Below are positions 2,263 to 53,300 of a stretch of 64,000 nt of DNA, in pieces. The notes under the pieces were generated by a model. That model searched no databases and was not told where the DNA came from. It saw only the letters and a list, made by a program, of their open reading frames with translations. The stretch spans positions 4,030,001-4,094,000 of the forward strand of contig OY725495.1 in assembly GCA_963281255.1 (NCBI GenBank), written 5' to 3'. The stretch's first letter is position 1; the number at the start of each line of letters is the position of its first letter. The position numbers and the translations under genes were made by a program. The stretch is from Aphrocallistes beatrix (taxonomy: Eukaryota; Porifera; Hexactinellida; Sceptrulophora; Aphrocallistidae).

Positions 2263-3081
2263 CTACATCTCCATCGGAGGCTGCTGAGGTTGAGCCGCAC
2301 CTCCTGCAGCGTCTCCAGAGGACTTCTTAATCCCAGAGACTATGTCATCGATGCGTAGTAACAAGATCGAGGTCTCAATCGCTGTTTTGTATACCTAGAA
2401 TAAAGAGAAATGACCCGTAAACGCTAATGACCTTGATAGATGGGAAAATAAGGTTGACGCATGGAGAACTCGTACCAACTACCAACTCATCCAAAAGCAC
2501 TAAGTCAACTAGTGCCAGGTCATAACTACCAAAAAGTCAACTCGTACCACTAACAAAAATGAAGTGTACGATTTCGATAGAATTTTGGATGAGATTTCTG
2601 TAGGAACACAGCGAAAAGCAGGATTTTCTGTTCACTTAGTACGAGCTGACATGGTACGAGTTGGTATGTAGTACGAGTTGAGTGGCATTCGTTCCTGAGT
2701 ATAGCTTATAGATGGAATTCCCTTGTCATGAAACTAAAAAAAATACTTCCAACTGGCCTGTAGCTTGACAGAGAGGGGATCCCATATGCAGAGGTCCTTC
2801 ATATCAGCCAGCACTCCCTTCTCTCCATCTATCCCCCAGCTGGAGTTCTGATTGGTCGCGTGCTTAGCTCTCAGTGTTGTGAGGGTTCGTATGGTGTTAG
2901 CGCCACAGTTCTGTATGAGTGTACGAGGGATTACCTCGAGAGATTTGGCTATGGCTTTGTACGGCCATTGTTCCACTCCTGTCACGCTCTTAGCTTGCTC
3001 GTTGAGGATGTTAGCCAGGGCCATCTCGCACGCCCCGCCCCCTGGGACGAGTTTAGGATCGAGTAATATATTCCGCGTTAC
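2263..3081 (-). CDS. CCT3: CCT3 exons 5 and 6 (C-terminal part)
   Basis: Exon 5 (3081-2758, 108 codons) begins after TTAG and carries the conserved GGG and EQWPY blocks of the equatorial domain. Exon 6 (2394-2263) encodes the last 43 residues: YKTAIETSILLLRIDDIVSG, then a Gly/Gln/Pro-rich tail ending PPMEM. Intron 5 (2757-2395) starts CAG|GCCAGT and ends CTAG. No GT donor nearby keeps the frame, so a GC-AG intron is the best reading. The intron contains a degenerate repeat with ACTCGTACCA motifs (2470-2690). Confidence 0.9.
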
Positions 3082-6000
3082 CTAACACAAAGAATTGGGA
3101 TGAGTACCCATTGGTTAGTTCGGGACACTTTGGTCCATTTTAATAAATGCACCATGGATGAATAACTTACTACAAAGTATTAACGTTATATCTGCATTGT
3201 CAAATTATATTCTCACTTTTATATACTTGCACATGCACATTTTCAGGAATTTTGAACATATATATATATAGATACACTTGTACGCATTATTTGAGTATAT
3301 TTTAAACATATTTTGAGCATAATTTGAGCGAATACATTTATTACAATTACGTATACAATCTTATGAAACATATGTATACTTCTGTTGATACAAATTTATC
3401 GATCGTTTGTTGATAATATTATCTTTTACAATAGATAGGCCGAAATCCTGAAGATTTGCAGTTTAGCTGTAGTCCCCTCAACTCTCTAATCACACTGTAA
3501 AATTATGTATGTGATGTGACACCACTAAACTCACGAGTCACAACCCATAAGCTACTTTTCATAATTGCAAACGAATACTTAGTACACATGATCTCCCAAA
3601 GTTACAAATATGACCACATAGAGAATAGTCATATAGTTAGGCACGTTCTCTATATAAATAGAGAAAGTATAATTATTACTGAAAGTAGAGAAGATTAACA
3701 TGGCGGAAGGAGGTAAATCTTTCAATTCAATCGATAACAAGGACCAACTAATGCTCGTGGAAATAAAAGATGGAAAATATGGAGGTTACAAGCAAGATCT
3801 TCTGCTGGGGACGTTATCCAAAATTGAAATAAAAGTATGCGTATGTATAGGGTGTACTGGTCTGGGTAGAGATGCGTGTAATGTCGGTGAAGAACAGAAT
3901 CTGATGTGTGAAAATTGTGTCCCAGAAGGTTCAATGCACACTCCACTAAAAGTGGCTCGAGATGAGCTGCCATTTATATCTGCGAAATGTCCACTTCACA
4001 CTCGAGGGTGTGTGTGGAAAGATATCATCGGGACATTGATTGGGCATTTGGATGAGTGCGAATATTTCGTCGTGAATTGTACGAACGATTGTCAAATGAT
4101 TCTACAGCGAATGGAACTCGTAAATCATTTGGCAAAAGACTGCACACATCGTAACGTTACATGCGAGCATTGCAATGGAACTGTCATGTTCAAGGATCTG
4201 ACTTCACATCATGAAACATGTCCTGAGTTCCCACTCGTGTGTAAGAATGAGTGTGGCGGCACTTTCAAGCGTAAAGAAATGCAAGGCCACGTGGACAATG
4301 ATTGTCCAAACACAGTCCTGCCTTGTGGTTTCAAGGTGTTTGGGTGTGGAACTGAAAAGAAAAGGTGTGAACTAGCGGAACACTTGAATGCAGAGCAGTT
4401 AGCACATTTGAATTGCACGAAAGAACATTCTAAAAGCAAGTTCGAATATATAGAAAGCACCTTCAAACAATTGCAGGAAGAAAAGGTGGGAAGTAACCAA
4501 CTTACAGAATTGCAACAGAAAATAAAAGAATTCGAAGGGAAGTTAGGAGAGAGAGAAAAAGAGAATGTATCAGCAACAGCTGAAAACAAAGCTTTGAAAA
4601 CTGAAGTTGAAGCGTTGAAGAAGACTCAAACCGATGCAAACACACAAATCGAAACGTCGAAAAAAGCACAAACCGAATTAGAGAAAAAGTCAAAAGAACT
4701 AGAAGGGAAATTAGGAGGGAGTGAAAAAGAAAATCAGACTTTGAAAACGGAGGTTGAAGCATTGAAGAAGGCTCAAACCGATGCAAATACACAAATCGAA
4801 ACGTCGAAAAAAGCACAAACCGAATTAGAGAAAAAGTTAAAAGAGCTAGAAGGGAAATTAGGAGGGAGTGAAAAAGAGAATGCATCAGCAACAGCTGAAA
4901 ACAAGGCTTTGAAAACTGAAGTTGAAGCGTTGAAGAAGACTCAAACCGATGCAAACACACAAATTGAAACGTCGAAAAAAGCACAAACCGAATTAGAGAA
5001 AAAGTCAAAAGAACTAGAAGGGAAATTAGGAGGGAGTGAAAAAGAAAATCAGACTTTGAAAGCGGAGGTTGAAGCATTGAAGAAGGCTCAAACGGCGCTC
5101 AAAACGGAATTTGAAGCTTTTAAGAAAGAAATATTAGCGAAAATACCTGCACCTCCAAAGTAAACTTTTACAAGCAATCAACATTTTGATCAGGAACAAT
5201 ATTGTATGTATTTTAAAGACTTTGCTGATTTTAAGTAGATAGCTTTGTTTTTGAAATTACTGTATATGTTTGATTTATTTTAGTATAAAGTTCCAATTTC
5301 TACTAACTAAATTGATCTAGATTCTGACTGCGTAATCTTTCTTAGCCCTGGAATGTTGCTAACTCATTCCGGTTATATCATTTTAGGCGGGGAAGCAATA
5401 CAAACATAGGATCTTTACTATAAATAGAAAAGAGCCTAGCTTGAACAACACTAATCAAGGTCGTCAGACCAAAAGGTACCACTAACAGGAATATCTTGAC
5501 ACAATACAGTGTTCTTGTGAGATTCTAAGGACAAGGCAATATCTCAATTATAGTCAGTCATTCTTTTCGCTTTATTCTAGACGAGTTAAAATTGGAACTG
5601 TGCAAGTCATCTGGAACACAACAAGTAATGGTAACCACAAAGTAATATTCACAAACAAAGTTGAGCTACTTCCTCATCACATAAATAGAAGAAATCGCTA
5701 CTTCTAAAATAGAAGTAGGATTAAAATGGCAGAAGGAGGAAAGTCTTTCAACTCAATCGACAATGTAGATCAACTCTTGCTTGTGGAATTAAAAGACGGG
5801 AAATTTGGAGGATACAAGCAAGAATTACTACACGACAGTTTGACTGCTTTCGAGATGAAATTCTTTATTTGCACAGGATGTAACGGTTTGGGACGAGACC
5901 CCTGTAACGTCGGAGAGGAACAGAAATTCCTGTGCGATACTTGTATCCCAGAGGGGCAAGAACGAACCCCGGTGAAACAAGCACGGGAATCGGTACCACT

Positions 6001-9000
6001 AATATCGGCGAAGTGTCCACTCAACACCAGGGGGTGTATTTGGAAAGACATGATTGGTAACTTGACTACGCATTTGGATGAGTGCGAATATTTCGTCGTG
6101 AATTGTACGAACGATTGTCAAATGATTCTACAGCGAATGGAATTGGAATATCATTTGGCAAACGACTGCACACATCGTAACGTTACATGCGAGCATTGCA
6201 ATGGAACTGTCATGTTCAAGGATCTGACTTCACATCATGAAACATGTCCTGAGTTCCCACTCGTGTGTAAGAATGAGTGTGGCGGCACTTTCAAGCGTAA
6301 AGAAATGCAAGGCCACGTGGACAATGACTGTCCAAACACAGTCCTGCCTTGTGGTTTCAAGGTGTTTGGGTGTAGAGCTAGAAAGAAAAGGTGTGAACTA
6401 GCGGAACACTCGAATGCAGAGCAGTTAGCACATTTAGATCTCACGAAAGAACATTCTAAAAGCAAATTCGAATCAATAGACGGTATCTTCAAACAATTAC
6501 GGGAGGAAAATAAAAGTTTGAAAGAAGAGGTTAAAAAACTGAAGGAAGCACAATCTGAAATGAAAAGCCAATTCGACACTTTTAAGAAAGAAATGTTGGA
6601 CAAAATTAACTAGTTAGTAAACATAGTTTATAGATGATGTTTAATATGTAGGGTTAACTTTGAGTAAATATAACCACTACGTACAGCGGTGGGCAACCTG
6701 GGGCCCGCGACTCTTTCAAAACACTCTATTATGGAGTCCGTGTGTTAGTGAGTGTAGTACAAAATGGACCCGCCTAATTTTGTATTACAATCACTAACAT
6801 GGGCCCGCCTAAAACTTATGTTATAAATGAAAAGCTTGAAGCTGGAAATGAAAGATTGTCAAAGAATTGTCATATACTCGAAAAACGTTAAATTGAAATG
6901 GATTGCAAAGTAAAAGAATTGACAGAAAAGATATCATATCCAGTTGTGTTAGCAGATGAATTAAAAAAGGAATTAATTGACTCCATTCTAAGCAAAAACC
7001 CATCACAAAAAGAAGGCGATATATTCCGTAACCCTCGTGGATTGGGAGGATCCTATGCTCCTATGCACTATTCTTTATTGGTCAACAAGTTTGAATTCCG
7101 CTGGAATGAACTTTTTATATATACGTAACCTTTACATATGAAAAGGATGAAAAGTTAATCAAAGTCACTATTAGTTTGAAAGATGGCGGGAAGAGACATC
7201 TAAAAAAGTTCGAGCATAATGCTAATTTCCCGTCATAAATGATTTCCTGTCATAAATAATTTGAGCATAATGTTAATTACCCGTCATAAATAATTTGAGC
7301 ATAATGTTAATTTTCCGTCATAAATGATTCGAGCATAATGTTAATTTCCCGTCATAAATGATTTGAGCATAATGTTAATTTCCCGTCATAAAAAATGGGC
7401 TTATTTTGAGCATAATTTGAGCATATTTTGAACATAATTTGAGCATATTTTGAGCATAATTTGAGCATAGTTTGAGCATATTTTGAGCATATTTTGAGCA
7501 TAATTTGAGCATAATTTGAGCATAATTTGAGCATATTTTGAGCATATTTTGAGCATAATTTGAGCATATTTTGAGCATAGTTTTAGCTAAAAGCAAGTTC
7601 GAAACAATAGAAATGCAGGGGGAAAAGTTTGAAAGAAGAGGTTAAATCTGAAGGAAGCACAATCTGAAATGAAAAGTCAATTCGACACTTTGAAGAAAGG
7701 AATGTTGGACAAAATTAACTAGCTAGTAATTATAGTTTATAGATGATGTTTAAACATGTAGGGTTAACTTTGAGTAAATATAACCACTACGTACGGTATC
7801 ATGAAATCTGTCAGGGGCAATCATTATACGTAAATCTCAAAGAGCCAACAATGGTCGTCATAAAAGAAAGACTCAATCATGAGGAACTTGATGTGAAATG
7901 TTAAATTTGGACTAGGGAATGGTTTCATTTCTATTAAAAAGCTTATTGTAAGAGCCTTCGCATCCATTGGAACGAGTGTGCACCTCCATAACACTATCTT
8001 ATAGGGTAGCTATGCATACTCAAGTATATAAGCAGTAACTAAGCTAAATAAATACAAAATTCATTTTGTATGGTTCTTTTCGATTACATTGTTTCGTATT
8101 GAGATGGCTAGCAGTAATACAATTGACTGTGTACAGCAACTTATATTCACTGAAATTATCAAAGGTCAGTTTCGAGGGTACAAACAAGATTTATTACTGA
8201 AAAAATTAAATGAAGTTGAGTTTGAATTTTACGTTTGCACTAAGTGCAATGGGATAATGAAGAATGCTTGCGAAATCGGAGAAGAACAGATACCAGTGTG
8301 CGAAACCTGTGCGGGAGGAGTGAAAACTCATCCAATGTTAAGATCCAGAAAGAAAATCTTAGAATTGAAAGTGAAATGTCCTTTACAAGGAAGAGGTTGT
8401 GAGTGGAACGGAACCTTGGCTGAGATCGAAATGCATTTAGGAATGTGTCCAGAATTCAAGGTTGATTGTGCAAATAACTGCGATGTCGTAATGAAGCGAT
8501 CTGAGTTGGTAAACCACTGTACAACTGAGTGTCAGAATAGAATGACCATGTGTGATCATTGCAGACAAAAAATGCAATACAAAATGTTAGAGAATCATTA
8601 CACAACTTGTGTTGAATTCCCTTTACAGTGTCCTAACGAATGTAAAGAAAAGCTCAGACGGAAAGAAGTATCTTCACACGTTAAAAACGAATGTCCCAAC
8701 ACTATTTTGAATTGTATTAATAAATGCGGCACACAACTAAAACGATGTGAAATGCAAAATCACTGCGAAAACAAATGTCAGTACAGAAAGGTTAACTGCA
8801 AGCATTGCAGAGTAATAATCTTATTCAAAGAGATAGACACACACAACAAAACATGTCCAGAATTCCCGCTGTTGTGTTCTAACGAGTGTTTGAAAGAGCT
8901 AACTCGCAAACAACTAAAGTCACATATTGAAAATGACTGTCCTAACACAATAATAGAATGTCCGTATAAGAAGATGGGATGTGAAGAAATGATGAAGCGG

Positions 9001-12000
9001 AGAGATGTAGAAGATCACGAGAAAAAATTCAAATCAAAACACCTGAAAGTAATGGCTAATAAAATGCTAGAAATGGATCAGGTTTTTCGAACTGAAATAA
9101 AAAACTTATGATGAAAAACTTGAAAATGAAAGGTCTTCAAATAATTGACATATTCTCGAAAAAAGTTTAATTGAAATGGATTGCAAAGTGAAAGAATTGA
9201 CAGAAAATAATGTGTATTTGTGAATATTTTCTGAAAATTATGAATAGCTTGCTCATTGTACCTACACTCTACTACATCACAACTTTTAAAAATATATTTT
9301 ATTTTAACAGTGTTTCATATTTTTTCAGTATTGGATTATTGTAATTATCTGCTAATTGGCTTTCCTAAAACTTTCAAAATTGTTGTTGTTAAAGCATAAA
9401 AATACGATCACATCAATCTGATCCGTAGAAATCTTGGGCGGCTAACAATAGATAAGCGAGTACAATTTAAATTACTAAATTTAACCAACAATATTCTTGT
9501 GCCCCACGCACCTCATATCTTTTGCAACTCCTAGTTAAACCCTCTCACAGTAGTGGCCAGAACCTGAGGTCTAACTAAAAATGTTAGCAACACCCAATGA
9601 TCAATACAACATAGTACTATGATTCTAGGTCATTTTCATACAGTGCATCATTTGCATGGAAAAAACTATCAGGCCAAATCAAATTGTTAATTCTCTATCT
9701 TTTAAGGGTTCTCTATTAAATTATATACTCCAAATTGAAAAATATCAAATTTTCTTAATTCATAATATTGTAACATTTCTCAATATTCTTTCTCTGTACT
9801 ACTTTGCTTGATTGTAAATTATTATTAGAGATACGTGGTATGTTTTGCAATGATTCATATGAAGTAATCTCCTATCTGATTACTTGATAACTTAGGAGAT
9901 TGCTTAATAACTTAGATGAATAAACTTTTGATAATATTATTTGAGATTATTTAATATCCTAATGATTCAAAAACAAGATTAGTCATAACTATATTATTTT
10001 AAATGTAAACTTATTTTTGATGTTCCATTATTAGAAATGTTATCTAGACACAATAAGAATTATTTCGTAGGCACACAAGAATTTGGTAGAAAAGGCTTGC
10101 CCATCATTAGTAATGATGCCATTGTTTCAAATTACCGTTGGACAGTACTGTATACTCCGAAATATTTTAGTGCAGCTTCTAGCATAGGAGATTCCTTACG
10201 TTATGATCGGCTTCGAATGTCCATCCGTTCGTCTGCTTGCTCCTGGAAATTCTATTAGACTAAATTGCACCAAATTTGGACCATATAATCTTTATATGTA
10301 TGGAGGATATTTGAACCTGGGTGCAAATTATCATTTGCAGCATTTTATGATTTTAGTATTTTGCCTATCTTGTATATTAAAACGCTAGGATTGTTTGCCC
10401 AAATTGATTGAAAAATTGGCAAGCCGTAGGGATATGAAAATTGGCATGTAGGTGTCAAATAATGAGTCTACGATTAAGTTTTAAGGTCTAAGTGAAATTT
10501 TCACACCTCTGCAAAAAAAGGAAAGCAATTTTCACACCTTTTCTATACAATATATATAGCTTCACTCTCGCAATAGAAATCATTGTACGGCACTACAATA
10601 AACTGTCATGTTATGAATACTACAAAGTAATAACATATAGGGGTATTATTAGTGCATATCAATGAAAAGGGTCGTGTCTATATTTTAAAATCTTTATATA
10701 CATATTTTCACATGCTTTGGCGAATTTTGAAAATATGCTAGAGATTAGCTTCCAACGATGAACGTCACTTAACGAGATACTAGCATTATGATCGTAATTT
10801 TTTATGACGGGAAATCAGCATTATGATCGTATTTTTAGTGGAGCTCCTGTAGGGAGATACCCATATGGCATTATCATCAATGACAAATTGAATAGTAGAT
10901 CGAACCTTACCAAATATTACATATATTACATAATATTACATATTTTAATTAAATAAACAACTCGTATGGTAAAATATAGTTTCAAAAGTTGTGATGTAGA
11001 GTGTAGACAATGAGCAGCTATTCATAATTTTCAGAAAAATATTCACAAATACACATTAATTAACAGGAAAGTAGGAGAGAATACATACAAATTTTTCACA
11101 TGAGATAATCATTAACTTCTTGCATTTGTAGCATGAAAGATATTGTTTGATTTTTAGTTCTTAACCTCTCTTCCGTCATCTTGTCTCCTGGTATTTCTGC
11201 TATTTCCAGATGGTTACTTTTCAACGGTTTCAACTCTTCAACTTTTGACCAAAATACAAGGGAATGTTGAATATTTTTTGTATCGATAATTATTAGTTTA
11301 CATTTGAACTTAAATATTTTTTTAAGATGTCTCCTCCCACCATATTTCAAACAAATAGTGACTTTGATTAACTTTTTATCTTTTTCATATGTAAAGGTTA
11401 TATACAAATCAAGTTCATTCCAGCTGAATTCAAATTTGTCGGTTAATTTTTCAAAAAAATCATCTACACAAGAATCATCTACACAAGAATAATTATGAAC
11501 TCTGTATTCCTTCATTTTACTACTGAATGACGGGTAAGGGATACGGAATGAATATTCGTTTTTTGATAGATTTTTGCTTGGAATCGAGTTAACCCATTCC
11601 TTTTTTAATTCACTTGTCAACACAACTAGATATGATATCTTTTCTGTGAATTCTTTCACTTTGCAATCCATTTCAATTAAACTTTTTCCGAGAACTTGAC
11701 AATTCTTTGACAACCTTTCATTCTCAGCTTCAAGCTTTTTATTTATAACATAAGTTTTTTCGGTTTGAAGAAACTCATCCATTTCCAGCATTTTATTAGC
11801 CATTATTTTCAGGTGTTTTGATTCGAATTTTTTTTCGTGATCTTCTACTTCTTTCCGCTTCATCATTTCTTCACATCCCATCTTCTTATACGGACATTCT
11901 ACTATTGTGTTAGGACAGTCAGTTTCAATATGTGACTTCAGTTGTTTGCGAGTTAGCTCTTTCAAACACTCGTTAGAACACAACAGCGGGAATTCTGGAC

Positions 12001-14255
12001 ATGTTTTGCTGTGTGTGTCTATCTCTTTGAATAAGATTATTACTCTGCAATGCTTACAGTTAACCTTTCTGTGCTGACAATTGTTTTCGCAGTGATTTTG
12101 CATTTCACATCGTTTTAGTTGTGCACCGCATTTGTTAATACAATTCAAAATAGTGTTGGGACATTCGTTTTTAACGTGTGAAGATACGTTTTTCCGTTTG
12201 AGCTTTTCTTTACATTCGTTAGGACACTGTAAAGGGAATTCAACACAAGTTGTGTAATGATTCTTTAACATTTTGTATTGCATTTTTTGTCTGCAATGAT
12301 CACACATGGTCATTCTATTCTTACACTCATTTGTACAGTGGTTTACCAACTCAGATCGCTTCATTACAACACCGCACTTATTTGCACAATCAACAATGAA
12401 TTCTGGACACATAGTACCTGAATGTGTTTCGATCTCAGCCAAGGTTCCGCTCCACTCACAACCTCTTCCCTGTAAAGGACATTTCGCTTTCAGTTCTAAG
12501 ATCTTCTTTCTATATCTTAACATTGGATGAATTCTTATTCGTCCCGCACAAGTTTCGCACATTGGTATCTGCTCTTCTCCGATTTCGCACGCATTTTTCA
12601 TGATCCCATTACACTTAGTGCAAACGTAAAATTCAACTTCAATTTTATCTAATTTTTTCAGTAATAAATCTTGCCTGTATCCTCGAAACTCACCTTTTAA
12701 AATTTCAATAAATAGAAGTCGTTGTACACTGTCAACTCTATAATTATTAATTCTAGCCATTTCAGTGCATAAAATGAAAATATTTGTCAAAATAAATTCA
12801 TCTATTTATCTGAATTGGGTAATATACTTGATTATGCATAGTAAGATATTGTGTTACCACAGTACTACTGACCAGCAATTTTTCTGATGGATGCTAGGGA
12901 TCTTACAATTTCAACTTTTCAATAGAAATGAAAATATTATTCAAAATTCCACAGTTCATATCGATTTCTTAATTATTTAGTACATTATTGATGCTTGAGT
13001 TTATAATATGCGACGCCCCTGATCATTTATAAATACATTGTAGATATTGTATTTCATGTAAACGTGATGGCTATACTTTTACTATAAATTATCATCATGC
13101 CAAGTACTAGGAGGCCTCGAGCAAACAAGCCTAGATATTTTAGGGCAGTGGGAATTGAACAGTTTATCAAATTTGATTGAGTATTGATCAAAGAGCGAAT
13201 ATTCAATAGTCCAAAGTTAGTATGACGATCATTATGCTTAATATTCCCAGTGGCTATTTAATGAGGCTTTTAAAACAAACACCACATGCCATTTACTTCG
13301 TCTATGAGTAGTATTTGTGATCACGGATCTGGATATAACTTGAATACTTTTGATCTTTGACTTTCAGCCCAGACTATATCCTCTACTTCTCCATTGCTTA
13401 GGAGGATTTTGTAGCTATAAAAAACTCGTACTGAAAGGAATTCGATCGCAAAAACCAGAGTAGTTAGTAATATCAGGGAGAGAGCCGTATCGTGAGAAAT
13501 GAAATTGTAAAGTAAAGATCAATTTGGTAAGATAGTTAGCTGTAATATTAATAGTAGTAATAAGAATAATGCCAATAACATTTCTAATAATGGAACATCT
13601 AAAATTAGTGAACTTTGTTTGCGTTTAAAATAGTATAGTTATGACTAATCTTGGTTTTGGATCATCATGATATGAAATAATCTCAAATAATATTACCAAT
13701 CAATTTTATTCATCTACTAAGTTATTAAGTAATCTCCTAAGTTATTAAGTAATCTCCTAAGTTATCAAGTAATCAAATAGGATATTACTTCATATGGATC
13801 ATTGCAAAACATACCACGTATCTCTATAATAAAATAAAGGTCATATTTGCACGACTTACTAAATTATTAGCATTGTGCTAATCCCCCAAAGGCCAATTCA
13901 CTTTGGTAGTCAAAATTTACAAAATTGCTCAAACAACAAGTTAAGGTATTTGTAAGTTTCTACAAAATTTGGATCATACATTTATTTCAAAAAATAGTAA
14001 CTAAAGACAAATAGACTAGTAGAAATGTTTCTAACAACCTAGCTTGCTTTGGTTAATTAATTACTAGCTGAGTTCCAAGAATTCCACAGTCGAAAAACTG
14101 AAATTTCCAATTATAAAAAAGGTGACAATGACGTCATAATTCCATGATGAGTCGATATTTTCGTCTGAGGTTAGAACTTAGTGGAGCCATATCCAAAAGA
14201 CTCCCACATGCCAAAAATCAGCTCTCTGTGTTGGCAATTTCTTCAATCAATTCGT

Positions 14256-14309
<54 letters not shown>

Positions 14310-17300
14310 CAGACATTAATCGAGTTTTAATAGTAAGGATTTAAGATTAAATGTTAAGCTGTGCAGCTTGGATATAACTCGAATAATGACAAGGAGAGTT
14401 CTGATAAGGAAGCAGAATAATACCTAAGAACTCTGAGTTGACAAACAAAAACAAAATAAGCAAGGCATGTCTAGAGACTAAACATACGTATTGTTGCACA
14501 GATTGGTTGGTAACTCAAGACAATTGTGTATAAATAGGGTAACTAGCCATGATATGTACTCTACTACTAGAAACCATAACTCTACTATACTATCAATATA
14601 TGGCTAGCAGAATATCTCACTTGTTGATTCAAAAGAACATTTATTCAAAAGAAAAAATTTTGTATATAGAAACAAAAAAGGGAGAGTATAGAGGATACAA
14701 ACAAAATCTACTCATTGAAAATTTGACTGAGGTAGAATCGGAATTCTACGTTTGTAGGAAATGCAACGGGCTTATGAGAAACGCTTGTCAAATCGGACCA
14801 GAACAAATACCAGTCTGTGAAAAGTGTGCAGGAATAACAACAACTCATACCACGATAAAAATAAGGAAGAGAATTTCAGAATTAGGAGCAAAATGTCCTT
14901 TGGAGAAGAGAGGGTGTGAGTGGAAGGGAACTATCAACACAGTCAATACACATTTGGATATGTGTCTGGAATTCAAAGTCAATTGTACAAACAAAAAGTG
15001 TGAAGTGATTATGAAGCGATCTGAGTTGATAAATCATTGTAACAATGAGTGTCAAAACAGAAAAACAAACTGCAAGCATTGCAGAGTAATAGTTGTCTTC
15101 AAAGATATAGACACACACAACAAAACATGCAATGAATTTCCAGTATTGTGTCCTAATCAATGTGAAAAATCTATTCTTAGAAAGCAAATCGAATTACATA
15201 CAAAAAATGAATGTCCTAACACAATAGTAGAATGTCCTTATAGAATGACAGGATGTAAGGAGAGGATGAAACGGAAAGAAACAGAAGATCATGAAAATAA
15301 ATTCGAAACAAAGCACTTGAGAGAATCTGTGACTTACTTTCTTAGCAAACTGGAACTGATGGAAAAAAAGCTGAAAGATTCGGAATCTAAAAATGAATTG
15401 CTTAAACAAGAAAATAAACGGCAAAGTAAAGAGTTCGCTGAGAAACTGAAACAATGTGAGTGCGAGTTGAAGGAAAGCACAAAGAAGTTAACTGCAATTG
15501 AATCAGAATTCGTATCTAAAGAGAATTATAACAGATATACTGAAAGCCTAGCATATACAAATTCAAAATTAACCTCAAATAACGAAATTCTAGAAACAAG
15601 TGTGAAGAGCATTGATGATAAAGTGCGAGAATTGTCAAAAGATGCGTTGTATCAAACGGTAGTTAGTGATGAAATAGGGAAAGGATTAATCGCTTACTCA
15701 ATAAACACAGCAAGGCCTACGTACCTAGATGAAATTACTAAGAGTCAGAAATTTGAATTCAGATGGAATCAGTTAAAATTAAGCTTAATTTTTAATTATG
15801 TGAGAACTCTACAACAATTTTTTGCTACAATTCGGAATGACACGGAACTAAAACCTTTCCTGAAAAAACACAAAATTAAGGCTAAATTAACAATTTTGGA
15901 TACAAAATTCTTTCATAAATCTCTCGTGTTTGTATCAAAAATTCTAGAGTTAAAACCCATCGGGCAAATGGGCAATGAGTTCAAACTAGCTGAAATATTC
16001 AGAGACCAGATGTGTGAAGAACGGCTCAGAAATACAAAAAATACAATCTCATTCATGCTCCAGATGCAAGAAGTGGATGTATAAGTTAACTATAGTCTTG
16101 TATCGTTATGTGCTAATGTCTATTAGTAGTAGCTAACATGATGAAAATGTATTGTCATTTTTTTTACTTGTGTGAGAAATGCAATAAATAAATTATTAAA
16201 TACATGCGCCACGCATTTGCACAGGGCATGCTGGCAGACATGATGTGTCTCCATGGAGACCCCATAGGCTATCTATTGAGTATTTCCCTAAACCATGGAT
16301 ACATAATTGCTTTGGCCAGAAAACTCGAATTTCTAATCACTATAAACAAGTAACAATGACAATAATTTAGTAGATGGAAAGTGGTAAGATACTGTTGGTC
16401 AAAATCTTGGATCATTAAACCCCAATCATAATGTGGTTACACAAACTAAATAATGGAACATTGGACTATTGTTGTGATTTGGTCTCAGGGTTGCCATGGG
16501 AACGGGATTGAATTTTTCCTAGGGGAATTCTATCCTCACGGCAACCCTGTTTGGTATCTAGAAAGCACTGCGCTTATAAAATCATTATGTTAAAAGTACG
16601 AAGAAAAAACGCAAATACACTCTAAGGATTTCCAAATGCAAGTGTATCCATAAAATATTCCACAAATTAAACAAGTCATTTTGGGCGGGGAACCCATAGA
16701 AATGCATGGTTCTACTATAAATAGATTAATTAATGATATCTTATCCAGGTTAACTAAGTAATTTATCCAATCTTAGCATCAATAACAAATCTACGTACGG
16801 ACCTGTAACATTATCTGCCATCATGTTATGCATAAATTGAGGCAATGTGATCTTCGATATATAAGAACTAGAGTACACGAGGAGGAAAATAATCCCTGAT
16901 ATGGCTAGCAAAAGGGTCGTTGATAGCAGAGATCAACTTCTATTCAAAGTAACTTCCATCAATAATGAAAAATTAATATTCGGAGGGTACAAGCAAGAAA
17001 TACTCGTGAACAGTTTGAAAAAAGTGGAAAGAGAATTTTACATTTGCACTAAATGTAATGGACTAATGCGTAACGCTTGTGAGTACGGCGAACAGGAAAC
17101 ACAAGTTTGCGAGTCGTGTGTAGGAAAAGAAAATGCTCAACCGGTAGCGAAACCTAGGAGAAAAATCAGCGGACTGAAATCAAAATGTCCTCTAAAGAAG
17201 AGAGGCTGTCCTTGGAAAGGGAGGATTGCTGAGGTGGATGCGCATTTACTGCAGTGCCCGGAGTTCATAGTTGAGTGTAAGGATAAATGCGGTGTAGCCT

Positions 17301-41300: not shown

Positions 41301-44300
41301 AACAATCAATTGTATTCGTTATTTACTTTCATAATGTAATTCAAACATTTGACAATAATTATGTGAAATATCTTGTTTTATTCTACATAGGAGGAAAATC
41401 ATTTAAGGGATATATAACAGAATCATAACCACTTAACAGCACAAAATCCGAATCTGAATCTAAATCCTTATTTGAGCCCAAACCTGACTACATTCTATTA
41501 ATTAATTAATAACCCGGGCACGTCCAGGAATGTTGAAGTGAAAGTGAAAGTTAATTGAAAGTAAACTGAAAGTGAAAATGAAAGTGGTCATTTCTATTTA
41601 TACCTTTGACCCCAAGTATTCCTCGGGTTTTAAAAGTACAGAATAAAAAATATAAAGCCTAAGCCTGAACCTGAACCTGAACCTGATTCAACTCTGTGCT
41701 AAACATCCAGAACAGCTTCATGCTCCTTATCTCAAGCTTGGAGAGAGATAATCCCAGAAAATTTAGACAAAATCATAGCAAGTACTTAAATGGCACTATT
41801 AATAATATATTGAAGTGATGGAGTACAATTGGAAAGTTACTTGTAATATAGTATTTGGTAAAAAAGTTACAAGATTTGCTAATAGAACAACGTTAAAATA
41901 TCTCAGCATAAGATTGTAGAGATGTAAAATTAATCAACAATTATAGGCTCACTGCCATCCTTTCTTATTTGAAGTTTACATCTGAAGAATATTTTCATCC
42001 TTACTATTAAAACTCGATTAATATTTATTTGTGTATATATATATATATATATACGTGTATATACGTATATATACACTACCCGGACAAAAGTATTCGACCA
42101 CCACGAAAACTTCCATACAAATAGTATTAAATTAGATCTATTAAAAAAGGAATATGTCCTTAAACAATAGAAAATACTCTTTTTTTAGTTTCAATTCGTA
42201 ATCTACACATTCTAATTACTCATAATTGAGAGTTTCAACTCAATTACTTATTCTTATGTAGAAAATTATCAACCTATGCCACTTTGTGTCACTAAACGCC
42301 ATCATATATAATGGCTGTTACTTGGGACGAGTAGCATCAAGTATCAAATGTTGATATTTATTAACTTGGGAGTTAGTAATCAAGCTGAGGCTATCAATTA
42401 TCCTTACTATTAAAACTCGATGATTGTATATATATATATATCTGTAACGAATTGATTGAAGAAACTGCCGGGCGCAGAAGGCTGATTTTTGGCATGTGGG
42501 AGTCTTTTGGCTATGGCTCCAGTAAGTTCTGAGCTCAGACGAAAATGTCGACTCATCATGGAATTATGACGTCATTGTCACCTTTTTAAAAGTTAAGCAA
42601 TACAGTTATTCGAGCATAACTCAGCCATTATAGGAGATAGAAGGTTGAAATTTTAATAGAATCTGTATACTAACATGCCTCACATATGATACAACTATCA
42701 TCAAAAAATGATGACTCATCACTTTGCTATGACGTCATCATTACTCATCAAAATTTTAAAAATTGACAAATTTGGTGTTTTTTCGAGTGATATCGATTTT
42801 AAAACTAAGATGGACATATTTAGAGATGATATATCCCGTTTAATTAACCAATGTCACCTCCAGGCGACCGAAGGGAGCCTCCGGCGGACACAAAGTGTCC
42901 GCCAGCCGCGCAGCGCAAGCAAGCGCGAAGCGCGCTTGTAAACAATTAGAATGTGTAGTTTACGAATTTGAAGTTTGAGCACATTTTCCTTTATGAATAG
43001 ACCCACTTTAATACTATTTGTATGGCGGTTTCTGTGGTGGTCGAATACTTTTGTCCGGGTACTGTATATATCTATATCTGTAACGAATTGATTGAAGAAA
43101 CTGCCGGTCATAGAAAGCTGAGTTTTGGCATGTGGGGGTCTTTTGGCTATGACTCCACTAAGTTCTGAGCTCAGAGCAAAATGTCGACTCATCATGGAAT
43201 TATGACGTCACTGTCACATTAAAAGTTAAGCAACAGAGTTATTCGAGCATAACTCAGCCATTATAGGAGATAGGAGGCTGAAATTTTAATAGAATCTATA
43301 TACTAACATACCTCACATATGATGTAACTATCATCAAAAAATAATGACTCATCACTTTGTTATGACGTCATCATTACTCATCAAAATTTTAAAGTTTGAT
43401 AAATTTGGTGATTTTTCGTGCGATATCGATTATAACAGTAGGGCAGATGTATTTAGAGATGTTATCTCCTATATAATTAATCAATGGTGACTGCAGGCGA
43501 CCGAAGAGAATCTCCGGCAGACACGAAGTGTCCGCCAGCCACGCAGCGCAAGCAAGCGAAGCGCGCTTGTAAATAATAAATACATATGTAAACTACGCAA
43601 CACCAATTAAATTAAGTGTATTAGATTTGAGATTACGTCACAATCTACACTGGTGTTGATACAGCAAATATTGAAATATGTACCATACGAATGAACTTTT
43701 GACAAATTCATTAATACAACCAATATATCTATAAATCGAATTTCTGCAGTAGAGACTTCATGGATTGTTGTTGCTATTTTGGTACAAGAACTGAGATTCG
43801 ATTTCAGTAGTTAAAAGGGATACAAATCTTCAAAAGAAATAGAGAACATCGTCTTGTACTAGATGATATCAATTTCAGTGTAATATATGTACTACAATAT
43901 GCATTTGTGTATGTATAAATAGGACTCAACTAATTAATCTTACATTTTATAACTGAGATGGCTAGCAACAAGACTTACAATGGAATTGATTTGATAGAAC
44001 AACTTCTATTTATAGAAACAAAGAAAGGTGAGTTTAGAGGATTTAAACAAGATTTTCTATTAACTAGTTTGCACGAAGTAGAAAAGGAATTCTATGTTTG
44101 TTCGAAATGTAACGGACTTATGAGAAACGCTTGTCAAATCGGAGAAGAACAGATGTTAGTTTGTGAGTTGTGTGCGGACCAAGGAGACAAGCCTCTACCG
44201 ATGGCGAAGTCAAGAAAGAAAATCTCAGAACTGAGAACGAAATGTCCTTTGGAAACTAGAGGCTGTGGGTGGAAAGGAACAATTGCTGAGATCGAAATAC

Positions 44301-47300
44301 ATCTAAACGCGTGTTCAGAATTCATAATTGAATGCACTAACAAGTGTGATGTGATAATGAAGAGATCTGAACTGACGAAACATTGCATGAATGAGTGTGA
44401 GAATCGAGAAGTCAACTGTCAACATTGCAAAGTCCAAATGAAATATAAAGAATTGGGAAAACATTACTCAATCTGCATTGAGTTTCCTTCGAAGTGTCCT
44501 AATGAATGTTTGAAAGGTCTCCCGCGAAAGGAATTAAAAGCACATATTGAAAATGACTGTCCTAACACAATAATATAATGTCCTTATAAGGAGGTGGGAT
44601 GTGAAGAGACGATGAAACGTAGAGATGTGGAAGAGCATGAGAAGATATACGAATTGAAACATCTTAGAATGACTGTACACTATTTCTCAAATAAAACTGA
44701 TCAAATAGAAAAGAATTGTAAATCTCAAATCGATCAAAATGAAAAGAAACGCAAATCTCAAATCGATCAGAATGAAAAGAAATATAAATCTCAAATCGAT
44801 CAAATAGAAAAGAAATGGATATCTCAAATCGATCAAAATGATAAGAAATATAAATCTCAAATTGATCAAATAGAAAATAATTGCAGATGTCAAATCAATC
44901 AAAATAAAAAGAAATGGATATCTCAAATTGAACAAATAGAAAAGAATTGTAAATCTCAAATCGATCAAAATGAAAAGAAATGGATATCTCAAATTGAACA
45001 AATAGAAAAGAATTGTAAATCTCAAATCGATCAAAATGAAAAGAAATGGATATCTCAAATCGATCAAAATGATAATAAATATAAATCTCAAATTGATCAA
45101 ATAGAAAAGAAATGGATATCTCAAATCGATCAAATGGAAAAGAAATGGATATCTCAAATCGATCAAATGGAAAAGAATTGCAAATGTCAAATCGATCAAA
45201 TAGAAAATAATTTCAAATCTCAAATCGATCAAATGGAAAAGAATTGCAAATGTCAAATCGATCAAATAGAAAATAATTTCAAATCTCAAATTGATCAAAT
45301 AGAAAAGAATTGCAAATCTCATGAACGGACTTGTGAGCAATTCATTGAAAAACTGAAGCTTGAAAATGAAAGTCTAAAGACAGAAGAGAAAAATCTCGAA
45401 ACAAAGTTGAATAGAACGGAAACAAGTTCGAGGTTTCAAGAACAAACTTACAAAAGTCTGGAGTACAGCAGCCAGAGAATACATGATAGAGCTCTACACA
45501 AAATACCTAATCAAGAAAAAGTGATAAGGTGGCCCAATCCCATTCCTAACCCGTACATGAATATAAATCCACTCATATCATTCGACAGCCACGAATACAC
45601 TCTGCCTTTTTCGAAGGCGGCGATTAAAGAGACAATAACCGAAAGCAAGAAATGAACAATTCTCCTTGGTGGTACTATGGATAATACTCAAGAGTAATAG
45701 TACACTCACTCTGAGGAGACAACAAATATTTACGTATCTTAAACTAATAACATTCAATCTTACATTGTTACTTTATATATCCTATAACAATCGATTGTGA
45801 TTGGTTATTTATTTTCATAATGTAATTCAAACATTTGACAATAATTATGCGTGTGAAATATCTTGTTTATTCTACATAGTACGAAATCATTTGAATGCCA
45901 TAACAGAGTTGAAATCAAGCCTACTTTAAGAATCCAATAACACATACTCGAACCAGAATCTGAATCCTTGTTTGGCCCAAACATGACATGACTTTACTTT
46001 ATACGTATATTTTGAGTATATATTCTACTGTCAGTCCAACCTGAAAATTTGTCAATTTTAAAAATGTTTGATACATAATGATGACACTATAACAGTGATG
46101 AGTCATCATCTTTTGATGATAGTTGTATAATATGTAAGATATATTAATATACAAATTCTATGAAAATCTCAGCCTTCTATCACTTAAAATGGCTGAGTTA
46201 TGGTCGAAAAACTGAAATTTCATATAATAAAAAAGGTGGCAGCAATGACGTCATAATTCTATGATGAGTCGACATTTTCGTCTGAGCTTGTGGAGCTATA
46301 GCCAAAAATCAGCTTTCTGTGCCTGGTAGTTTCTTCAATATACATACAGTAGAACTCGGCTAGTACATACTCAGGATAATAGGTTCTTCGGTTTAGTACG
46401 AACTCATTTCTCTGAACCAAAATCAATCTAGAATATACAAGTAGATTTCTTTGTGGTACAAACTCGGGTAGTACGTACTTATGGATAGTACGTACTAATA
46501 ATTCCTTCCCGAAGGGGTACGTCTTATCCGAGTTCTACTATATACAAACATTAATCGAGTTTTAATAGTAAGGACGTATGATCTTTCGAAAAATTCATCA
46601 CTCCAACCAATATATCAATAAATTGAATATCTACAGTAGAGACTTCATGGAATGTTGTCCTTAATTAAAGGTACAAGAACTGAGATCTGGACTTAGTAGT
46701 CAAGAAGGATACAACTCTGCAAAAGAAATAGAATACATCGTCTCGTGTGATGATATCAATATCAATATCAATATCAGTGTAATACAATATGCATTTGTAT
46801 GTGTATAAATAGGACTTAACTAACAATCTTACATTTTATAACTGAGATGGCTAGCAACAAGACTTACAATGGAATTGATTTGATAGAACAACTTCTATTT
46901 ATAGAAACTAAGAAAGGTGAGTTTAGAGGATTTAAACTAGATTTTCTATTAACTAGTTTGAACGAGGTAGAAAAGGAATTCTATGTTTGTACGAAATGTA
47001 ACGGACTCATGAGAAACGCTTGTCAGATCGGAGAAGAACAGATGTTTGTTTGTGAGTTGTGTGCGGAACAAGGAGACAAACCTCTACCGATGGCGAAGTC
47101 AAGAAAGAAAATCTCAGAACTGAGAACAAAGTGTCCTTTGGAAACTAGAGGATGTGGGTGGAAAGGAACAATTGCTGAGATCGAAATACATCTAAACGCG
47201 TGCACAGAATTCATAATTGAATGCACTAACAAGTGTGATGTGATAATGAAGCGATCTGAACTGAGGAAACATTGCATGAATGAGTGTGAGAATCGAGAAG

Positions 47301-50300
47301 TCAACTGTCAACATTGCAAAGCCAAAATGAAATATAAAGAATTGGAAAACCATTACTCAACTTGTATTGAGTTTCCCTTAAAGTGTCCTAACAAATGTTT
47401 TAAAAGTCTAACTCGGAAAGAAGTGGAGTTGCATGTTCAAAACGAATGTCCCAACACTGTATTGAATTGTGCAAATAAATGTGGCATAAAACGAATACGA
47501 TGTGAAATGCAAAATCACTGCAAAAACGAATGTCAGAATCGAAACATCAACTGCAAACATTGTAAAGTAATCATAGTATTCAAAGAACTATACACCCATA
47601 ACAAAACATGTCCAGAATTCCAACTAATGTGTCCTAATGAATGTTTGAAAGATCTCACTCGAAAGGAATTAGAGAAACATATTGAAAATGAGTGTCCTAA
47701 CACAACAGTAGAATGTCCTTATAAGGAAGTGGGATGTGAAGAAGCGATGAAACGTAGAGATGTGGAAGAGCATGAGAAGAGATACGAATTGAAACATATT
47801 AGAATGACTTTACAATGCTTCTCAAATAAAACTCATCAAATAGAAAATAATTGCAAAACTCAAATCGGTCAAAATGAAAAGAACTGCAAATCTCAAATCG
47901 ATCAAATAGAAAAGAATTGCAAATCTCAAATTGATCAAATAGAAAAGAATTGCAAATCTCATGAACAGACTTGTGAGCTAGTCATTGAAAAACTGAATAT
48001 TGAAAATGAAAATCTAAAGACTAAAGGGAAAAATGTCGAGATAAAGTTGGTAGAAATGGAAAATAAAGTAAAAGAATTGACAGAAGAAATATCCTATCCA
48101 GTTGTGCTAAGAGATGAAATACCAAAAGAAAAACTGAAATATTTACAAAGTCACTTACAAGATAATGATCCCGCGCTTCATTCTACTAGAGAAATGGTCA
48201 ACCCCGGACTCCGTTTATTCAAACCCTATCTACACCAAAGATATCAACCCCAAGCTACAATGCAGCCAGGCAGAAGTATATATGACAAACATTTCCAAAA
48301 TAAACCTAATAAAGCCCAAAAATCCAAATCAAAAATTGAGAATACTCAGCCCCAACCCAGCGATGATCCAGGAACAAAAGAAGAAGAAGTAATGGAAATA
48401 TATAGAAATAGTTTCCGTTATAATCAGGGTCAGCTCAAAATACAGTTTGAATACGTAAAAGCTCAAGAATTGATTGCAGCTATCATAATCGAACGAGGAT
48501 ATACCGAAAAGGGTAGACGAGTAGAAACTAAATTTAAATTCATAATTCTTGACAGGAAGAATATTCACGAATCTCCTGTATTTGAATCGATTGAATCGCC
48601 TTCGTCAGCAGGTGTATATCTCATAGCAGAAATTCCTAAAGATTTGATACTCGAAGAAAGATTTCGAAATGTAAACAACTCAGTATCATTCATTATCCAA
48701 AAGCAAGAAAACAATTTACCTTGGTGGTATATGGACAATACTCAAGAGAAATAGTACACTCACTTGAGACAACAAATATTTACGTTCTTAAACTAATAAC
48801 ATTCCATCTTGCATTGTTACTTATATATATCCTATAACAATCGATTGTTTTCTTACGAACCTTCATAATTCAAATTTGACAATTATTATGTGTGAATATA
48901 TTGCTTTATTCTACATTGTTATCATTCAATCTTACATTGTTACTTTATATATCCTATAGCAATCGATTGTATTCGTTATTTACTTGACAATAATTATGTG
49001 TTAAATATCTTGTTTATTCTACACCATTCGAATGCCATAACAGAGTTGAAATCGGGTCCACTTATAAGAACTCAACAATTCAAAACTCCAACCTTTTTAT
49101 TTAAATTCATATTTGGGCCCAAACCTGACCCAATTATATATATATAAATATATGGTGTAACAAAAGTGTTGTCACATTTCATCTTAGCACAAATTTAATA
49201 GGTACAAGTAAACAAACATTTGATAATGGGAAAGGAAAAGTGTATTTCGCAAATGCTGTGATGTCACAAAATATAGTAATGCGTGATAGCTAACGACAGA
49301 CTAAGAGTTTTGTATTTGATTATTTTGGTTCGATATCAATCAATCAAGCATATTGATGAATAATCTAGGGTGAGAACACTTTTGTTACATCCTGTACATA
49401 TATTCTACTGTAATCCCAACCTGAACCCGATTCAACTCTGTGCCTAAACATATTCAAAATACAAATTCGGAGATAGATAATCCCAGAAAAGTTAGACCAA
49501 TCCATAAGTATTCTAAATGACACTTTTAGTAAATGCATATGGATACTACTTTTCATCAGATGGTATGTACAATTTTGTAACTAGAAGTAACAATCAAGAA
49601 CTATAGATACATGTCATCTATGCTCCGAGACAAGGAATAATGACACCCCTGATCTAACGTAATAGGAAAACATAAAGCAGTAGAAAGAGTCCAAAAACTT
49701 GGAGAAAATATTTTCATTGCTCTAAACACTATTTTTTACTATTTACATATTTACCATATTTATCGTACTCTATTATGTGTGTAGTATAAATTATAGTGAA
49801 TTACTACTATTAAATAACACAGTAATATGCTAAATTTGTAAATCTGATCAGTCTCTAATTCACATTTAATTCTGTGTAGAGTTACAACATTCTACACGTA
49901 CTAAAAAATCTCACGTCTGTACTATCTTACGTTTGCTAATGTTATACGTAATCACAGATTAATTTATGTTTGCTAGTAGAATCTATTTATAGGTTGAAAT
50001 ATATACACACATAAGCATAACATGGTCTGAAATAGTATGTACAACTTCAAAGTATAAATAGCTAGAATTTCAGTTGATCACAAAATTAGCATTGAGATGG
50101 CCAGCAAGAAGACTTATAATGCTATTGACTGGAAGGAACAACTCGTTTCAATTGAATTTAAGAAAGGAGAGTTCCGGGGTTTCAAACAGGATTTGTTAGA
50201 AATCAGTTTGAGTGAGTTAGAAAGTGAATACTATGTCTGTACGAGGTGTGAAGGACTGATGAGAAACGCTTGTTCCATCGGAGAAGAGCAAACTCCAGTC

Positions 50301-53300
50301 TGTCAGACTTGCACTCGACAAGGGGAGAATCCTCAAATAATGGCGAAGTCAAGAAAGAAGATCCCAGAGCTAAGAGCAAGATGTCCACTGGAGAGGAGAG
50401 ACTGTGTTTGGAAGGGAAATATTAGAGAAGTAGAAGCACACTTGGATGAGTGTCCAGAATTCTTAGTTTACTGCAATAACTCATGCAGCGAAATACTGAA
50501 ACGATCTGAACTCGCGAATCATTGCAAAACTGAGTGTGAATGCCGCGAAATAAAGTGCCATTATTGTAGCATTGCAATCTTATTCAAATAAATAGAAACC
50601 CATTACAATATCTGTCTGCATTATCAGCTGGTCTGTCCGAATGGCTGTTCTAAAAGCATAATTCGGAGAGAAATAGATTCCCATTTCGAAATGGAATGTC
50701 CTAATACGCTGGTTGAGTGCCCGCACAAGAAGATGGGGTGTGAAGAGAGGGTGAAGCGATGTGAGTTAGAGGAACACAAAACACAGTTTGGATCCAAGCA
50801 CTTAGAACTGAGTACTCTCTATGCAGTTAGTAAGGTGGAGATGTTTGAAATTAAACTTAAGAGAACAGAGCTGGAAAACGCGAAACTTAACACGAGAAAT
50901 GCAGAACTAACTAATGAGTTGAAATTTCTTCGAGATACGATCAGAAAAATGGATTCCAAAATTGAGAAATTCCTTTTCCCAGTCGTATTGAAAGATGAAA
51001 TCAATGGAAGGTTGATTGATTACATCGATAAAACTTCAAGAGGTTCTTTCTATGAACCCGCATCCTGTCATAACTTTTTATCGAATCAAATAAATTTTTT
51101 CCTGAATTATCACTACGCAAGAATACAAAAATTAATGGTTGCGACAATACGAATTAAGTTAGATAAGGATAAGATAGTCAATGTGAAATGGCCATTCAGG
51201 GCTAAGTTCAAACTAACAATCGTGGACAGAGAAGAAGCAGAGAGTTCGTTAGTATTTGAAACAGGAGAACAGGAGCTACAACCGAAGAGTAAGGAGATGA
51301 TCTCGGGTATGGATGAGGCCACTCTAGCTGAGATACCTGGAGCTGTATTGACTGAAAAAAGATTCAGGGATGCAGGAAACAGAAAAATATTAAAGTACTT
51401 TAATTCTAAACGTTTCAGTTTTGCTATGTTAAATAGGTTGCTATGCTTGTCTTTACAATTGTCTGATTATCCAGTGCACTGCCTGTACTAAGATTATGTG
51501 GTCGTTATTATATGCTATGAACATAGTATCTTATTTGGGTCACTTTACCTTAGTGCAGCTCCTATAAAGGGAGATGCTCTTATGTAGATGGTAACCGCAA
51601 AATCCTGCGGAATTATTAGAGTTTAGCTATGTAGAATTGTGCAATTAATATTGGATAAAGTGGGTTGAATAAGTTGGTAATTACAAATAAGTTGTTTGTG
51701 GTTGGTAAATCGAGCAGTTTGAGTTTAGGTCTTTCATATGGAATGCTTGTATTGGATGATCATGAAGGTAAAAATGTTGTTATAGAGGAACTCATGAATG
51801 CGAAGATACACATTATTAAATTCAATATTATACATGTTCTTTCCCGGTTCAACATCTACCAGCATTACTATAGCTGAACACTTCGTTATGTATCTCAGAT
51901 CTTTATATAATAAAACAGTACTAACGAATAAATTATAGAAAATAACTGAACTAGGAGAGAGAGAGAGAAAGTAAAAATCAAAAAATGGAGAAAAAGAAAT
52001 TTATACAAACATGTCAACGCATTTACGACATAAAAGTTAATAAACATGCAACACAAATAAATGTAACTAACCTGCAGTGCATCCTGTATATTCCTGTCCA
52101 CTTCATTCAATATGTCCTTACTGGGGCCTCTCAGCATAATCGTGCATGCTTTCGGGTTCTTGCATTGAACAAGAAAACTGAAGTACTCATCTCCGATTTT
52201 CCTAATCTCAAACAGTCCACAGCCCGTGCCAACGTCCTCCTCTTTCAGATCAGAGGTGTCGCTGGCGATATTGGCGCCCACAGCTCGTGCCACTCTGTTG
52301 CAATCAGATTTTTTGAGGCGGCGTAAACAAGAAATGTTGTTCTTGACAAGGAAGTGTTGAGCTAAGTCTGAGACACCTTTCTCAGTGATCACGAGATCAG
52401 GCTTGAGAACTATAATCTCGTCGCACTGCTTCTTCACTGCCTCTTCTTCTAGCTGCAAGATACGCATGAAGTCTTCCTCCTTGAACATCTCGATGTTAGT
52501 CTGACTCTCTCCCTAAACCAGCACAGCTCATACACAGCAGTCTAGCCGCATTCAGAATGTAAGTACAACAAAGTTAGCCTATTTCACGCATAATTCTGTT
52601 TCAAACGCGTTTAAATGATTTAATCGCGTTTGAAACGTAATAAAATATTGAAATGAACTTTCAAATTCAATATTAAACAATTACAAATTGAATTAATGTA
52701 TCTACCCCTCACATAGATATACAGTAGAACTCGGTTAGTACGTACTCGGGATACAACGTACTTCGGTTTAGTACGTACTCATTTCTCTGAACCAGAATTC
52801 ATTTATTATATAGATTCCTATGTAATATCAACTCGGTTAGAACGTACTTACAGATAGTACGTACTAACCGAGTTCTCTGTACATGTAGTTAAAAAAATTA
52901 ACATAATTTCTAGCAACAGAGCCAGTAGGATACCTTCTTGTACTCGAGGGGGCAATCTAGCAAGATGACTCTGGGGTTGTTTATCTTTCTGCTCATCTTA
53001 GGATGTACTACGTCTTTGTTGATCAGAATACCATCCAGAACTCTGGAGTCTTCCATGGAACCCCCGGGGATCTTCTCCACGCGAGCGTAGCGCTTGATAT
53101 CGATCTCTTTCCGTCCGTTCTCTTCCAGAGAGACTGTCTGAACGGCGTCCAGTGCTATCTCACACACTTGGTGAGACCATCTCTTCACCATCTGAGAAGT
53201 AGACAAGATTAAGCTTGTTATTAATAACCCACAAAACAGTTCAGTTATGAATTGTGCTTACTAATAGCACATCTCAGGATAACTTTACTGAACTCACAGG

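Follow-up and report, generated by a model that had tools for sequence, protein, structure and literature searches.

How far can the hosting of genes enlarge an intron, and can a gene family that changes fast, and is possibly immune-related, be kept stable by essential exons on either side? Both questions are raised by a stretch of 64,000 nucleotides from the hexactinellid sponge Aphrocallistes beatrix (assembly GCA_963281255.1, contig OY725495.1, positions 4,030,001 to 4,094,000), called the window below, in which an array of 17 TRAF-like loci lies inside one intron of CCT3, the gene of T-complex protein 1 subunit gamma. Short introns are the expectation for highly used housekeeping genes. 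The current work indicates that CCT3 is very probably a working single-copy gene with the array nested in its fourth coding intron, and that a large part of the array expanded in place through duplication of DNA. The window contains no N, and its contig (C9) measures 5.0 Mb in an assembly of 100.5 Mb and 28 contigs, which was taken as given. Positions without a contig name are counted from the first base of the window.

Structure and identity of the CCT3 gene

Six coding exons of CCT3 were located on the minus strand, and only coding exons are numbered here. Exons 1 (54271-54492), 2 (53569-53847) and 3 (52934-53191) were placed by the joined frame and by the match to PDB sequences; exons 4 (52072-52512), 5 (2758-3081) and 6 (2266-2394) follow, with the stop codon directly after the last. 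All six are in phase 0 and consist of whole codons, and when joined they give a stop-free frame of 551 residues. Over residues 8-541 this protein matches gamma chains of T-complex protein 1 in PDB with E = 4.9e-252. Among the 60 compared of 164 PDB matches, the best 11 are gamma chains, the eleventh being a gamma fusion.

The first-pass annotation had joined the end of exon 4 at 52072 to the start of exon 5 at 3081 through adjacent residues (DALQ and VTRN), the same phase and good splice signals, and each of these points was recovered. The donor after 52072 reads CAG/GTTAGT, the acceptor before 3081 reads TTCTTTGTGTTAG (ending in GTTAG), and the junction is gapless in the alignment to a solved gamma chain. 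Because an in-frame TAG stands immediately ahead of exon 5, the frame of this exon cannot be entered from the intron without splicing, and a frame that runs through exon 4 into the intron meets a stop after 58 residues. Neither half of CCT3 is therefore sensible alone, and the two halves agree with one spliced gene. The introns measure, in order, 423, 377, 421, 48,990 and 363 bases. The length of about 0.4 kb given earlier for the remaining introns thus holds (363-423 bases), with the correction that the last one has a GC donor, CAG/GCCAGT (2757). Intron 4 itself occupies 3082-52071, and about 53% of it consists of TRAF-like open reading frames (ORFs).

Copy number of CCT3 and relics of a partial duplication

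A second complete CCT3 elsewhere would have spoken against the first-pass annotation; none was found in the assembly by a six-frame protein search in which the best candidates were scored. The CCT3 protein detected one copy of each half, its own exons matching at 96-98%. The other matches belong to the chaperonin family and reach at most 47% identity, except for a copy of exon 1 at C9:4098164-4098433, which scored 87% in the protein search. At the nucleotide level the copy is 98.6% identical across 288 bases, including 45 bases ahead of the ATG and the donor site, and the block of exon 1 occurs twice in the genome.

This copy and decayed scraps lie 12.5-14 kb upstream of exon 1. The scraps are pieces of exon 2, found in coordinates extended beyond the window at 68034-68145 (78%), 67294-67372 (77%) and 66987-67036 (81%). 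Together they are relics of a partial upstream duplication, and they do not form a second CCT3. The exon 1 copy stands beside the 78% piece of exon 2 at L017:4034-4478 (C9:4098034-4098478), some 14 kb ahead of the gene's own exon 1, and the contrast between these identities suggests recent gene conversion or use of the copy as a second first exon. A further exact match of 28 bases to exon 1 (coding bases 40-67) lies at 56316-56343, between the gene and the upstream relic. Inside intron 4, tblastn and blastn searches with E up to 1 revealed no relic of a CCT3 exon.

The nested TRAF-like loci

A tblastn search with one nested protein, together with the ORFs, revealed 17 TRAF-like loci and one fragment (32202-32605) in intron 4, so that the number claimed in the first-pass annotation stands. 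All 17 ORF stretches lie within 3082-52071, as is required of nested intronic genes, and they occupy 25,730 of the 48,990 intron bases (53%). Sixteen are on the plus strand, antisense to CCT3, and the earlier statement that nearly all loci oppose their host has a single exception, locus 4 (11096-12805). An uninterrupted zinc-finger ORF is present in 13 loci; one more is a deletion derivative with an intact ORF, and three are interrupted.

On the plus strand, the ORFs are intact in loci 1 (3673-5163), 2 (5708-6613, short), 3 (8032-9111, short), 5 (14543-16084), 6 (16865-18463), 7 (19417-21057), 8 (21993-23627), 9 (25214-26776), 11 (29750-31315), 12 (32734-34341, with the fragment just ahead of it), 14 (39082-41154) and 16 (46820-48754), and also in the derivative, locus 10 (27324-27944), from which the zinc fingers are missing. 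Locus 13 (35282-36885) is frameshifted, with two overlapping frames, and loci 15 (43934-45655) and 17 (50058-51491) each carry one in-frame TAA. Below, loci are also named by their first positions.

The zf-TRAF family (PF02176) was found above the Pfam curated cut-off in 16 of the 17 loci, locus 10 being without it. TRAF proteins are defined by RING and MATH. In Pfam scans run at E up to 0.001 for nine loci and at E up to 1 for the others, no RING family appeared and no MATH match exceeded the cut-off; only locus 17 displayed a sub-threshold MATH_2 match (16.5 bits against 32). The nested proteins share with TRAF proteins the TRAF-type zinc fingers and a coiled-coil-like stretch, the latter recognised from weak matches to coiled-coil families and from 33-base repeats, and they differ from them in the two domains named above. 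With neither MATH nor RING recognised at these thresholds, the nested genes are called TRAF-like here and not TRAF proper. Across 11 loci the C-terminal portions can be aligned into a single domain-like stretch (mean column identity 40%), and a profile of these 11 C-termini had no match among PDB sequences at E up to 10. The 33-base (11-residue) tandem repeats in the coils of loci 14 and 15 were located at 39965-40627 and 44562-45422, and their copy numbers differ.

By eye, a TATA-like box, mostly ATAAATAG, was seen about 45-70 bases ahead of the ATG in 12 of 16 upstream stretches inspected, which covered all loci other than 50058. Such boxes are only suggestive of separate nested transcription units.

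Growth of the array by DNA duplication

Self-comparison of the intron, in which matches of at least 700 bases were considered, revealed duplication at several scales. A block of two genes, loci 7 and 8 (19435-23934), is repeated at loci 12 and 13 (32791-37199) with 87.7% identity over 4,537 aligned positions. Individual units are repeated with both their upstream and downstream flanks, for example 19334-21374 and 21908-23937 (89.5%), and loci 3 and 4 form an inverted duplicate (7871-9207 against 12981-11640, 85.3%). Neighbouring loci also tend to be close in the tree, with a Mantel rho of 0.48 that none of 2000 permutations equalled (16 of the 17 loci). Deletion is illustrated by locus 10, where the upstream region and start codon of a gene of the 39082 type run directly into its C-terminal part. 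Locus 10 matches two pieces of locus 14 (38388-39133 and 40567-41501); about 1.4 kb is missing, and with it the zinc fingers and the larger part of the coil. If expressed, its product could act as a decoy. A large part of the array has thus grown in place by DNA duplication.

Relatives of nested loci outside the intron, on contigs C13 and C11 and at C9:3152k, match them also over 80-180 bases upstream of the ATG. Locus 9 has its upstream region in common with the relatives on C13 and C11, and locus 6 matches C9:3152k at 89%, short flanks included. Because the upstream sequence matches too, these relatives look like DNA copies. An origin as retrocopies was considered and is not supported for the duplicates, which share both flanks inside the intron and upstream flanks outside it, so that their homology probably does not end at the transcript ends.

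In all 15 pairs tested, the ratio of nonsynonymous to synonymous substitution rates (dN/dS) was 0.18-0.43. Twelve pairs were between nested loci, two of them involving an interrupted locus (35282 or 43934), and three joined a nested locus to an external relative (C13, C9:3152k, C11). These values indicate that the array is under purifying selection.

Origin and phylogeny of the array

The TRAF-like family is not restricted to intron 4. At least 93 rows of genome matches were obtained with one nested protein and at least 151 with the Pfam family, these being the best candidates, with several rows per gene in places, and further arrays and singletons lie outside the intron. Two trees, of 35 and 42 sequences, were built from sequences picked from the 93 rows. 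Locus 10 was omitted, the aligned region being absent from it, and only the first piece was used of 35282 in both trees and of 43934 and 50058 in the 35-sequence tree.

In the rooted tree of 42 sequences, the nested loci fall into four branches. Loci 3673 and 5708 form the sister group of all other members of the sampled subfamily, which are united with support 92; 16865 groups with C9:3152k (support 100), 50058 stands alone, and the remaining nested loci belong to one clade (support 96) that includes the relatives on C13 and C11. The tree of 35 sequences, which has no outgroup, places C9_3968 with 3673 and 5708 (100) and C9_3966 with 50058 (80). The two trees thus disagree on 50058, C9_3966 and C9_3968, while the split of the nested loci is stable. 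Sequence exchange among paralogues may have distorted the deep branches. A further TRAF-like ORF recognised by eye at C9:3963650-3965074 (L062:2151-3575, plus strand) adjoins the genes at 3966k and 3968k, and a large cluster of zf-TRAF plus MATH genes lies at C6:4430000-4674000; neither is represented in the two trees.

When the nested loci and the relatives on C11 and C13 were forced into one clade, the cost was 196 log-likelihood units (approximately unbiased test, p-AU about 1e-56); without 3673 and 5708 it was still 170 units (p-AU about 1e-48). Extension of the full forced clade to C9_3152, C9_3966 and C9_3968 cost 32 units and was borderline (p-AU 0.045, Shimodaira-Hasegawa p-SH 0.196). 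The first of these tests strongly rejects a single in-place founder of all nested genes, and the array has no single recent origin. The first-pass annotation had a whole tandem family growing inside CCT3. One CCT3 gene with a 49-kb intron, and a gene family that expanded inside it, are borne out, and it is the word whole that fails, given the rejected single origin, the four branches, and the arrays and singletons elsewhere.

Intron 4 may be a long-standing site that some copies have since left. Since nearly all loci share one orientation, a single entry would be the most economical physical story, and it implies five or six later exits. On the best tree, placement of the ancestor inside the intron is favoured once an entry costs at least 1.5 exits; on the borderline tree, an ancestor outside remains cheaper by one step under all costs tried. 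A more ambitious proposal, which we regard as doubtful, takes CCT3 intron 4 as the ancestral nursery of the TRAF-like subfamily, because the deepest lineage sits there; the members found on C9 outside the intron and on six further contigs, including another array, would then descend from departed copies. If this were true, the flanking essential exons would serve as anchors, exchange being harmless inside the intron and lethal across an exon, and the array could expand and shuffle, yet never vanish wholesale. Around two external groups, the C9:3966k pair and C9:4478-4574k, no split host was seen in a weak test of the flanks by eye; single-exon ORFs resembling histone H2A, an NHL-repeat protein and a transporter were noted there, also by eye.

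Alternative explanations

The explanation that we prefer, and hold as a whole with good confidence, begins with one or a few TRAF genes that probably settled in CCT3 intron 4 once, long ago. The array lengthened in place through unequal exchange and duplication of whole blocks of DNA, which took spacers and upstream regions along, and the intron thereby reached 49 kb with its splice sites untouched. The host pre-mRNA would span the whole array, the 49-kb intron being removed as one piece, and the nested single-exon genes for TRAF-type zinc-finger proteins would be separate transcription units with their own promoters, mostly on the other strand. Single copies would later have left for other places in the genome. 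Several points weigh against this explanation. An intron of 49 kb is odd for a chaperonin gene: other CCT-like genes of this genome keep short introns, and in the seven into which the family matches were grouped (C2:638629, C2:581902 and C16:3826751 being left out), the outermost matched exons span 1.5-7.1 kb and the longest gap between matched exons is 4,194 bases. Interruptions affect three of the 17 nested loci, and truncation a fourth. A count of steps favours neither one entry nor several: at equal costs, both trees require seven steps with an ancestor inside the intron and six with one outside. Finally, it is from sequence that we infer the 49-kb splicing, the nested transcription, and the single entry with its later exits.

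The main rival is that a TRAF array already made up of several lineages entered intron 4 as one segment, by insertion or by trapping, and that its middle expanded later, so that the intron would be only a late home. The four tree branches in one intron and the rejected single origin would suit such a capture, as would the C9:3966k/3968k pair (both on the minus strand), which would repeat the head-to-tail order of 3673/5708 and 50058 under the 35-sequence tree; the rooted tree lacks those pairings. No scar of insertion was seen, however: the two ends of the intron (599 and 581 bases) share only two matches of 10 bases, a comparison that a short target duplication would escape. Branch lengths at the two ends of the array are, moreover, far greater than among the duplicates that arose in place. 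Capture as a block is thus possible, with a probability well below even. Fusion after tandem duplication of CCT3 is considerably less likely. In that case the TRAF genes would have lain between two copies, the upstream of which lost its last exons and the downstream its first, and splicing bridged the gap. The 98.6% copy of exon 1 and the decayed pieces of exon 2, 12.5-14 kb upstream, do testify to duplication at this locus, but these relics stand upstream of exon 1, away from the intron, where none was found at E up to 1; the fusion is very improbable. Misplacement of the array between the CCT3 halves by the assembly was also considered, tandem arrays being prone to error. The halves are on the same strand, in order and in phase, on one gap-free window of a 5.0-Mb contig, and apart from the copy of exon 1 neither half turned up a second time; an artefact is accordingly the least probable of these readings.

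Host and array might also be tied in function, a coupling that the first-pass annotation had named as possible; CCT3 transcription through the array would then silence or tune the nested genes by antisense RNA or polymerase collision. The geometry is suited to this, 16 of the 17 loci being convergent with CCT3, whose pre-mRNA would be antisense to them, and nested genes in humans can disturb their hosts (PMC3192792), although the cases in the part of that paper available are mainly on the same strand, the position of one locus in 17 here. Head-to-tail duplication alone predicts a common direction, and the binomial p of 2.7e-4 for the bias in orientation was left unused, since duplicates are not independent. 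Motif counts in the 23,260 bases of intron 4 outside ORFs were compared with 300 Markov resamplings. On the CCT3 strand, AATAAA occurs 36 times against 30.2 expected and is not depleted, and ATTAAA occurs 23 times against 31.3 (sd 5.6), which is slightly low; on the strand of most TRAF-like loci, the counts are 26 against 37.0 and 28 against 35.2. The strict recursive splice motif is absent from both strands of the same bases. Selection against premature polyadenylation on the host strand was considered, and the counts give no clear sign of it. These weak tests thus yield no clear sign of mutual adaptation of host and array, and beyond geometry the antisense coupling to CCT3 finds no support, so that we regard it as improbable.

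Other features of the window

No known RNA family was found in the window at the gathering score. A dispersed repeat (62554-62872) recurs at L017:8856-9174 with 96.9% identity, within an ORF that appears retropepsin-like by eye, and an ORF resembling a mariner transposase, also by eye, lies at L018:2277-2726.

Comparison with known nested genes

Whole genes within one host intron, on either strand, are common in animals, and the TRAF-like array resembles them in this respect. In the sections of the reports available to us, Hormiphora californensis has 2357 nested genes in 1654 hosts, smaller animal genomes tending toward more nested genes (PMC8527503), and Aphrocallistes vastus has 2432, or 12.4% of its genes (PMC10282587). 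The example figured for H. californensis comprises four genes in one host (PMC8527503), and here 17 paralogues occupy one intron of a chaperonin gene. Among titles and abstract openings of the open-licence literature, a scope that leaves aside subscription papers and preprints, no report was found of an array of such size in one intron, nor of this TRAF-like family.

The AIG1 block of A. vastus is a lineage-specific tandem of immune-type genes, most of which have a single exon, and further members lie on other scaffolds (PMC10282587), and as a tandem single-exon expansion with members elsewhere it is similar to the TRAF-like array. The available sections of that report do not describe the block as intronic, and they leave its mechanism between replication slippage and retrotransposition (PMC10282587); in the TRAF-like array, the shared flanks point to duplication at the level of DNA. 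The nested arrangement is itself known, and the special part of this locus is the size, the host and the likely age of the array.

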